Position numbers and translations under genes: made by a program
Part shown: one piece after another, positions 7,505-9,837 of the stretch
Position numbering within the stretch: the first letter of the stretch is position 1
How the letters are laid out: each line of letters opens with the position of its first letter
The notes under the pieces: model-generated
What the model was told of the DNA's origin: nothing
The model's database searches: none
What the model saw: only the letters and a program-made list of their open reading frames with translations
Source of the DNA: Armatimonas rosea
GTDB taxonomy: Bacteria > Armatimonadota > Armatimonadia > Armatimonadales > Armatimonadaceae
DNA length: 64,000 bases
Assembly (NCBI RefSeq): GCF_014202505.1
Contig: NZ_JACHGW010000001.1
Span: 1,364,001-1,428,000 of the forward strand
Reading direction: 5' to 3'

Positions 7505-7840
7505 CTACCCCCCGACGCGTTTCACCCGGTAGCCCTGTGTGGTTAGCTCCGCGACGATACGGTCTCGGTGGTCGCCCTGGATCTCGATGATGCCGTCTTT
7601 GACGGTCCCACCCGTGCCGCAGCGCTTCTTGAGCTGGGTGCAGACCCCCGCCAGCGCGGTATCGTCGAGGGGGAGCCCGGAGATCGTGGTCACGCCCGCG
7701 CCCTTGCGGCCCTTGGTCTCCCGCCCCACGCGAACAACCCCGTCGCCGAGGGGACGGACGGGGTTGTTTTTACAGACACACACCGCCTCGCCGCAGTCGG
7801 GGCAGAGGCGGCCTTTTTCGGTGGAGTAGACAAGTCCCAC
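7505..7840 (-). CDS. SUI1/eIF1-family translation factor (YciH-like)
   Basis: Small protein of 111 residues. The C-terminal SUI1 fold is recognised by GRKGAGVTTISGLPL and LKKRCGTGGTVKDGIIEIQG, ending in the usual basic VKRVGG. In bacteria this family is thought to affect start-codon fidelity, but its role is less settled than that of eukaryotic eIF1. The N-terminus has a CPxC-x4-CxC cluster (C13, C16, C21, C23) that probably binds zinc, a common addition in bacterial forms. It is the last gene of a minus-strand set with a coiled-coil protein 19 bp upstream. Confidence 0.88.
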   Translation of the reverse strand: MGLVYSTEKGRLCPDCGEAVCVCKNNPVRPLGDGVVRVGRETKGRKGAGVTTISGLPLDDTALAGVCTQLKKRCGTGGTVKDGIIEIQGDHRDRIVAELTTQGYRVKRVGG

Positions 7841-7859: not shown

Positions 7860-8621
7860 TCAGGCGGCTTCTTTGTCGATCTTCAGGAGCTTGCGCGCCG
7901 TGTCCTCACGCAGGTAGGCAGGCAACTCACCGGTCTCCTGGGGATTGTTCTCTTCCTCTTGCTGGCGCAGGTAGGCCTGGAACTCATCGAAGAAGGCGAT
8001 CACACCGGTCAGGTTATCCACCCGGACACGAGCTGCCTCTTCGAGGGCCTGGTGGTTGGCGTTGGTCTCATCGACCAGGATGCGAAGCTGGTTGAGGCGC
8101 TCGTGGAGGCGCTCCATCTCCTCAGCGATATTGCGGCGGAAGGTCTTGAGCTGCTCGCGGTTGCGGGTCAGGTACTGGTTGAGGGCGACCATCTTCTGGG
8201 CGGCATCGCTCACCACCAGGTGGCCGGCGCTCGACGGATCATTGGTGGTCACGGAGATCGCCTGCTCCATCGCCTGGCAGCGCCCACGCGCCGTGACCCC
8301 GTAGGGCATCTCGATCAGCACCTCGATCGCCTGCTCCGCCGTGAAGGGGGCCTGAGAGAGGTTGGCGCTCCCGTAGATCACCTGATCGTTGAGGTTACCG
8401 TCGGGCGTGATGGTGGCAGAGATATCCGGGGGCGCGAGCGGATCGGGCTCGGGTTCCCGCACGGGCTCCGGTTCGGGAGCGACGACTTGCTGGGGCACGA
8501 GCTCGGGCAGGGCGACCGGTGTCGCTGCCACGGGCACGACAGGCGCGGGGGTGTCCTCGTCCAGCCGCACTTCAATAAAGCTGGAGGTGATGGCCTCACG
8601 GAGCTTCTGTCCAATTCGCAT
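7860..8621 (-). CDS. Coiled-coil protein of unknown function
   Basis: Protein of 253 residues with no recognised family. Residues 25-65 are Pro/Glu/Val-rich and likely disordered (PEPEPVREPEPDP). The middle is globular (QVIYGSANLSQAPFTAEQAI). Residues about 145-225 form a strongly predicted coiled coil with an ERLHERLNQLRILVDE register. The C-terminus is charged. It follows the ParB-like gene by only 10 bp, so the two are probably co-transcribed and may work together. No signal peptide or membrane segment is seen. Confidence 0.6.
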   Translation of the reverse strand: MRIGQKLREAITSSFIEVRLDEDTPAPVVPVAATPVALPELVPQQVVAPEPEPVREPEPDPLAPPDISATITPDGNLNDQVIYGSANLSQAPFTAEQAIEVLIEMPYGVTARGRCQAMEQAISVTTNDPSSAGHLVVSDAAQKMVALNQYLTRNREQLKTFRRNIAEEMERLHERLNQLRILVDETNANHQALEEAARVRVDNLTGVIAFFDEFQAYLRQQEEENNPQETGELPAYLREDTARKLLKIDKEAA

Positions 8622-8631
8622 CGAACTCTAC

Positions 8632-9837
8632 CTAGAACTTTCTAAGCCCTGCACCACCCCCACGGCTCTCCCCAACAACAGGGAGACCCTTGGGAGCGAA
8701 CTTGGGGCGATACTCGACACAGCGGTAGGAGAGCGACGACTCCCGGGGAGCCTCCGCTTCATCCGCACTCACTTCCTTGGTAAAGACAGAGCAGCGACCA
8801 TTGGCAGCATCGTAGTTGCCGCAGTCTGTACAGCGCCGTAGCACGGTCCAGCAGATGGAGCAGCGCACCGCGCCCACCAGCTCGATTCGGCCACAGAGCG
8901 GGCAGTGGATATAGACCTCGCGGAAGCCGTAGTCTTTTTTCTCCAGGGCCTGGCGAACCTTGCCCGAGAACGACTCGATCTGCTTGGTCATCTGGGTGAG
9001 GGAGGCCAGCAAGTGGTTCATCTCCTCCACCGAGATAAAGTCGACAACGCGGGCATCGAGGGTATCGGAGAGGTCATTGATCTTGCGGTCGATCCCCTTG
9101 ATGTGATCCTTGGCGGTCTGCCCCTTGTAGGGCTTGGCCTTCTCTTCTCCTGCACGGAACGAGCGGATCATCTGGTCGGCGACCGAGCCGGAGACCCGCA
9201 GGAAGATCTCTTTCTTGGTGGGGTACTGCTGGATGGCGCGGATGATCTGATCCAGCGCTCCAACTCCCATCTTCTCGGACTTGATCTTCTCGACAAGGCG
9301 CATCTGGGTCTGGGGGTCGCTGTTGAGCGCTAGGAGAGCACGGGCGTGCCCCTCCCCAAAGACCGGTAGGGTGCCGGGGCGGGTGATGAGCTCCGCTTGG
9401 ATCGCCTCGGGAAGCTCCAGGAGGTCCAGCAAGCGGCGAATGGTGGTGTCCGAGACCCCCAAGGTCCGTGCGGTCTTCTCGTAGGACATGAACTTGAGCA
9501 GGCCCTGAATCGCTCGGGCTTTCTCAATGGCGTTCAGGTCTTCCCGCTGGAAGTTCTCCAGAAGCGCATCCGCAGCGGCGTCCTCATCGTTCATCTCACG
9601 AATGACCGCCGGGATCGTCTCCATCTTGGCCAGCTGGCTGGCGCGGAAACGACGCTCTCCCATGATGATCTCATAGAAGCCGGGGTACTTTTTGTGAGGC
9701 CGGACGACAATGGGCTCAAGGACACCGCGTTCCTTGATCGAGGCAGCGAGCTCTTCCAGAGATTCCTGGAAGAATGTCTTGCGCGGCTGATCCTCCGCTG
9801 CACGTATTTTCTCTAATGGCAGAAACTGAAACGACAT
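8632..9837 (-). CDS. ParB/Spo0J-family protein with C-terminal zinc-ribbon region
   Basis: Protein of 401 residues. The N-terminal ParB nuclease-like domain has GERRFRA (residues 60-66) and ENFQREDLNAIEKA. A helix-turn-helix follows (ARTLGVSDTTIRRLLDLLEL). Chromosomal ParB proteins bind parS and load SMC. Here, however, the C-terminus has eight cysteines between about 312 and 373 (CPLC, CSIC, CTDC, then two single Cys), unlike the usual ParB dimerisation domain, so the role may differ. The start MSFQFLPL is preferred over the upstream in-frame ATG because ParB homology begins there and GGGGAG lies upstream. No parA and no parS site were seen nearby. Confidence 0.83.
   Translation of the reverse strand: MSFQFLPLEKIRAAEDQPRKTFFQESLEELAASIKERGVLEPIVVRPHKKYPGFYEIIMGERRFRASQLAKMETIPAVIREMNDEDAAADALLENFQREDLNAIEKARAIQGLLKFMSYEKTARTLGVSDTTIRRLLDLLELPEAIQAELITRPGTLPVFGEGHARALLALNSDPQTQMRLVEKIKSEKMGVGALDQIIRAIQQYPTKKEIFLRVSGSVADQMIRSFRAGEEKAKPYKGQTAKDHIKGIDRKINDLSDTLDARVVDFISVEEMNHLLASLTQMTKQIESFSGKVRQALEKKDYGFREVYIHCPLCGRIELVGAVRCSICWTVLRRCTDCGNYDAANGRCSVFTKEVSADEAEAPRESSLSYRCVEYRPKFAPKGLPVVGESRGGGAGLRKF

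Follow-up and report, generated by a model that had tools for sequence, protein, structure and literature searches.

The window, a 64,000-nucleotide stretch of the Armatimonas rosea genome, carries on its reverse strand a gene for a ParB-family protein with eight cysteines in its C-terminus, hereafter ParB-Cys, followed by genes for a coiled-coil-like protein and a SUI1-family factor (Table 1). Pfam places the protein in the ParB superfamily, with ParB_N scoring 110.2 bits against a cut-off of 26.3 and HTH_ParB 57.5 bits against 22.6. A sequence-only reading of this DNA had called both domains intact, and the searches agree; its coordinates, strand and frame were exact. The eight cysteines it described were confirmed at residues 312, 315, 326, 329, 336, 339, 349 and 373; residues 1–311 contain no cysteine. 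Beyond residue 203 the protein has no significant Pfam domain, its best C-terminal match being the double zinc ribbon DZR_2 (E 0.28), and the helical linker occupies the position of the usual ParB C-terminal dimerisation region.

Table 1. Features of the ParB-Cys locus, in window coordinates
Feature	Position	Strand	Remarks
ParB-Cys gene	8632..9837	(-)	401 aa; open reading frame and translation; orthologue 90% and paralogues 58-59% identical
ParB_N domain, residues 3-97	9547..9831	(-)	Pfam E 5e-32; carries the CTP-binding motifs
HTH_ParB domain, residues 99-203	9229..9543	(-)	Pfam E 2e-15; aligned to solved ParB/Noc structures
Recognition-helix region, residues 129-142	9412..9453	(-)	Homologue alignment against canonical ParBs; contacts per PMC7383237
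Helical linker, residues 204-305	8923..9228	(-)	No Pfam match; conserved in the family; helices in low-confidence models only
Eight-Cys module, residues 308-381	8695..8916	(-)	CPLC-x10-CSIC-x6-CTDC-x9-C-x23-C
Coiled-coil-like protein	7860..8621	(-)	253 aa; 10 bp downstream of ParB-Cys; genus-specific neighbour
SUI1-family factor	7505..7840	(-)	111 aa; 19 bp further downstream; Pfam SUI1 E 6e-18

The canonical parABS system lies elsewhere

The 6.3-Mb genome, assembled in 19 contigs, encodes eight ParB_N proteins. Its canonical parB adjoins parA at C1:108 kb, 1.26 Mb from the window gene at C1:1373 kb, and a genome-wide search at up to two mismatches recovered just two parS sites, C1:108006 and C1:109828, which flank this pair. 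The window gene is therefore not the chromosomal ParB, which adjoins parA elsewhere, between the genome's two parS sites. A ParA query matched the canonical ParA and two other ParAs only. The earlier proposals that the gene has no parA or parS nearby and is distinct from the parABS ParB thus held up. None of the three findings named as telling against them turned up: the gene is not the sole ParB, parS stays with canonical parAB, and the canonical ParBs examined lack the Cys region.

Two further ParB_N proteins, encoded on contigs C4 and C3, are paralogous to the window protein and share its tail, giving three eight-Cys paralogues in the genome. Of the remainder, one is an orphan without the cysteines (C1:1507 kb), one is a ParB whose gene adjoins a plasmid-type parA (C13) and two lie on C6. 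The orphan (L005, C1:1507594) belongs to a second Cys-less orphan class that carries the signature GLSERTVGYLLDLL and recurs in several Armatimonadota families.

ParB-Cys is a conserved family in Armatimonadota

A profile built from the C-terminal 177 residues of the window protein matched 66 of the 291 Armatimonadota genomes searched. Strong ParB-Cys matches (E 1e-48 or better) occur in 47 of them, one further copy being cut by a contig end, and these carriers span 11 families. At least two ParB_N genes are present in 43 of the 47 carriers; the four without a second ParB are the MAGs G021 and G185 (<80% complete), G209 (88%) and G231, where the ParB-Cys open frame is just 146 aa. In five carriers besides the window genome (G008, G183, G217, G232 and G241), the canonical parB has a perfect parS and ParB-Cys has none, and two others (G020, G224) have no parS at up to one mismatch.

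In a tree of the N-terminal region, all 41 Cys-bearing sequences form a single clade (support 0.997), and the canonical ParBs group with Spo0J and Caulobacter ParB (support 0.913) in a clade that excludes the window protein. Orphan ParBs without the cysteines fall between the two. Within the window's family, ParB-Cys duplicated early: one copy now has DUF4446 as its divergent neighbour, next to sigma and anti-sigma genes, and from the other descend the window gene and the paralogue on C3. By these sequence criteria, Armatimonadota hold three chromosomal ParB classes: parA-linked, second orphan and ParB-Cys. The open-access literature yielded nothing on DUF4446 or on any zinc-containing ParB of Armatimonadota, and ParB-Cys is a real, conserved ParB class that is apparently new to the literature.

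This distribution bears on a possible mobile origin, in which a mobile-element or plasmid ParB became stranded in the chromosome and its tail is incidental. The genome does hold ParBs of mobile-element type, such as the one beside parA on C13 and the two on C6, but the plasmids, phages and viral contigs searched contain no eight-Cys module, and the cysteines and recognition helix of ParB-Cys are strictly conserved across all 11 families. We regard a mobile origin as largely refuted and very improbable.

ParB-Cys retains CTP motifs and alters DNA contacts

The window protein carries the CTP motifs QPR (17–19), GERR (60–63) and ENFQRED (94–100). Across 39 distinct homologues, QPR, GERR and ENxQRED are at least 95% conserved, and F96 at least 75%. 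In Noc, R89 and N121 are required for CTP binding (PMC8429893), and in our alignment the ParB-Cys family keeps the equivalents of both.

The DNA-binding surface has diverged. Ten residues of Caulobacter ParB contact DNA (PMC7383237), and their window equivalents are Y119, G127, V128, S129, D130, R135, L136, E141, G163 and R166. The parS contacts Q162, K171, R173 and N178 (Caulobacter numbering) become Y119, V128, D130 and R135. Three of the six positions common to ParB and Noc are altered (Q162Y, K171V and N178R), and R173 is now acidic. The NBS-specifying residues of Noc (Q173, K179, K184 and R201) are likewise replaced, by D130, L136, E141 and G163. With four parS-contact residues replaced, a non-parS target is predicted. 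The family also has a common recognition-helix signature, GVSxxTxRRxLxLLxLP, against GKSRxxIANxLRLLxLP in canonical ParBs, from which a conserved, different target is the natural inference. ParB-Cys thus probably recognises a DNA site other than parS.

Searches for such a site count against the explanation we favour below. No perfect or near-perfect palindrome is common to the ParB-Cys loci of different families, and a scan for over-represented palindromes in 0.8 Mb of the window genome and 0.4 Mb of G183 gave no convincing common site. The matches were hairpins, repeats or copies of TATCGNCGATA mostly within apparent coding sequence. NBS was not enriched in the window genome, where it has 7 matches and its reversed control has 5. 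We rejected GCGTCCNNNGGACGC as a target because it is absent from G008, a genome of the same genus that nevertheless has two ParB-Cys genes. In the window genome, GCGTCCNNNGGACGC occurs in 143 copies (2 for the reversed control), for example at C1:179320-179368 and C1:1574251-1574299, often in pairs with a spacing of about 34 bp and hairpin arms on the outside, as a dispersed REP-/MITE-like element.

The eight-Cys module

The clustering of the cysteines is not due to chance, since all eight are invariant in both paralogues and the orthologue and are kept in 38 of 39 distinct aligned homologues, the sole exception lacking the last Cys only. Among 14 diverse copies of the module, 12 columns are invariant: the eight cysteines and an R, a D, a P and an S. 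The module occurs on ParB, as stand-alone proteins of 76–78 aa, on GDPD phosphodiesterases and, in more divergent form, in a 261-aa protein. In the GDPD enzymes it sits at or near the N-terminus (L068, L069, L070, L071, L072 and L073). Outside Armatimonadota we found a single match, weak and partial, in a set of 397 genomes of which an estimated ~106 are non-Armatimonadota; in the sample used, the module is nearly confined to the phylum.

The earlier suggestion that the C-terminus resembles two metal sites is borne out at the level of motif, as the paired CxxC knuckles that characterise zinc ribbons are present and conserved. PDB matches of the module were mostly zinc-binding proteins, all weak (E >0.05). 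AlphaFold models of the full length, with two sequences as input (the window protein and one relative), and of the C-terminus alone reached a pLDDT of 37–41. This very low confidence leaves a zinc fold without structural support, which counts against the favoured explanation, and a fold search from the models was dropped as they were too poor. The conserved motif suggests that the module probably binds zinc, folding as two sites; its second half may instead hold an Fe-S site.

Neighbouring genes vary between lineages

The SUI1 gene is probably co-transcribed with ParB-Cys. The product of the gene between them matches no Pfam family and has a coiled-coil look; its N-terminus is amphipathic, at the 95th percentile of 213 (P0002), and that of its paralogue lies at the 75th. 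The gene order recurs in another species of the genus, represented by an Armatimonadetes MAG (L009) with a 90% identical ParB; in this assembly the coiled-coil gene is apparently frameshifted in its Pro-rich part. The protein downstream of the C3 paralogue is homologous to the window coiled-coil protein (BLASTP E 2e-7). Different genes adjoin the DUF4446-linked paralogue and the ParB-Cys genes found in other families. Hence, the coiled-coil and SUI1 genes do follow ParB-Cys as the sequence-only reading had stated, but their proposed role as parts of one system is not supported, the linkage being found only within the genus. Across the gene neighbourhoods no phylum-wide partner of ParB-Cys emerges, which again counts against the favoured explanation.

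The coiled-coil family is expanded, with ten matches in the window genome and further ones in other genera of its order, most of the members not being next to ParB. Several members (among the window protein, L222, L223, L224, L226, L227, L228, L230 and L231) lie in operons with OmpA-domain or ABC-transporter genes, and several in the genomes of family f2 adjoin genes of these two kinds. In G015, ParB-Cys is followed by a substrate-binding-like protein whose homologue in G024 (35% identity, E 2e-75) is encoded ahead of a coiled-coil member, a hint of a common module.

DUF4446 lies near a ParB gene in G212:C661 and G214:C96, and in the window's family it is arranged divergently to ParB-Cys (L011:7080-7610); we rejected it as a specific partner, as it is present in 239 of the 291 phylum genomes and missing from the ParB-Cys-bearing family f2. 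A split comEC, with a Competence domain and a separate metallo-beta-lactamase gene, lies close to ParB-Cys in families f32–f35, usually directly upstream (L054, L055, L056, L059, L080, L081 and L082). Upstream of ParB-Cys on C3, a pair of small genes (L010:10799-11589) look roadblock-like by eye but have no Pfam match. PADLOC returned no meaningful defence-system match.

These neighbourhoods bear on two further readings. ParB-Cys could be a ParB-derived transcriptional regulator that binds an operator and spreads over a short distance with CTP, its Cys module contacting regulators or RNA polymerase. KorB and VirB are precedents for such regulators, and the neighbours vary by clade, as for a dispersed regulator: the window's family has sigma and anti-sigma genes, f32–f35 a split comEC and f19 ispE. 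However, genes such as ispE and comEC point to no common regulon, and alignments upstream of ParB-Cys genes and their neighbours in the f1 groups contain no conserved palindrome. We judge a regulator of this kind unlikely.

Less probable still is a second system for segregation, served either by the resident ParA or by one specific to the lineage. In one genus (G015 and G016), a ParA-family gene does lie divergent beside a ParB-Cys of the window gene's own subclade, an arrangement that counts against the favoured explanation. Yet neither the window genome nor G008 has an orthologue of this ParA, and in G017 its contig carries neither of the two ParB-Cys genes. In other lineages, the stretches read at ParB-Cys contain no ParA gene.

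Interpretation and relation to known systems

We favour, with some reservation, the view that ParB-Cys is a third chromosomal ParB class, a DNA clamp that is gated by CTP, works independently of ParA and has a tail resembling a zinc ribbon. With its motifs intact, the protein would bind CTP and load as a sliding clamp at a non-parS recognition site of its own. The C-terminal module, probably with two zinc sites, would serve dimerisation or partner docking in place of ParA. By analogy with the ParA-independent switches Noc, KorB and VirB, ParB-Cys would act as a local nucleoid organiser or regulator, and in the window's genus the coiled-coil protein is a possible effector specific to that lineage. 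Between nucleoid organisation, membrane attachment and regulation, sequence alone does not pick one role.

A bolder proposal, which we put forward tentatively and hold to be possible rather than probable, is a new functional class: a CTP-gated clamp that targets a conserved site of its own and whose tail, dependent on metal, serves to sense or dock something that is not ParA. Were this so, the phylum-restricted module, which recurs alone and on GDPD enzymes, would be an adaptor common to several systems.

From an origin in partition, CTP switches of the ParB family have been put to use in nucleoid occlusion and in the control of transcription, and to our knowledge few chromosomal classes of such switches are known. 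If the recognition helix of ParB-Cys is new and its tail binds metal, this phylum-wide family would be a case of clamps switching both DNA site and partner, and it would give a first handle on the chromosome biology of a little-studied phylum.

With chromosomal ParB/Spo0J of ParABS systems, ParB-Cys shares a ParB_N domain with CTP motifs and an HTH_ParB domain, its solved relatives being 6sdk, 1vz0 and 6t1f. It differs in falling outside the canonical clade, in having no parA or parS, and in its altered recognition helix and different C-terminus. The module shares paired CxxC knuckles with double zinc ribbon proteins (DZR_2, YfgJ) at weak, sub-threshold similarity. It differs in giving no significant match to them and in its second half, CxDC-x9-C-x23-C with conserved EAExP and SYxC.

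Noc (TIGR04285) is the best NCBIfam match of the window protein, at E 1e-52 and 178.7 bits, below the cut-off of 315. Like Noc, ParB-Cys combines ParB_N and HTH domains in a ParA-independent paralogue that coexists with a chromosomal ParB. Unlike Noc, its contact residues match neither parS nor NBS, its C-terminus is the eight-Cys module and, because ParB_N begins at residue 3, there is no room for the N-terminal membrane helix of Noc.

The CTP-dependent regulators KorB and VirB are plasmid-encoded, lack the Cys module and are distant in sequence, although KorB is detectable as a relative of the window protein (E 5.5e-16). Like ParB-Cys, they are orphan members of the ParB family, and they serve regulation rather than partition.
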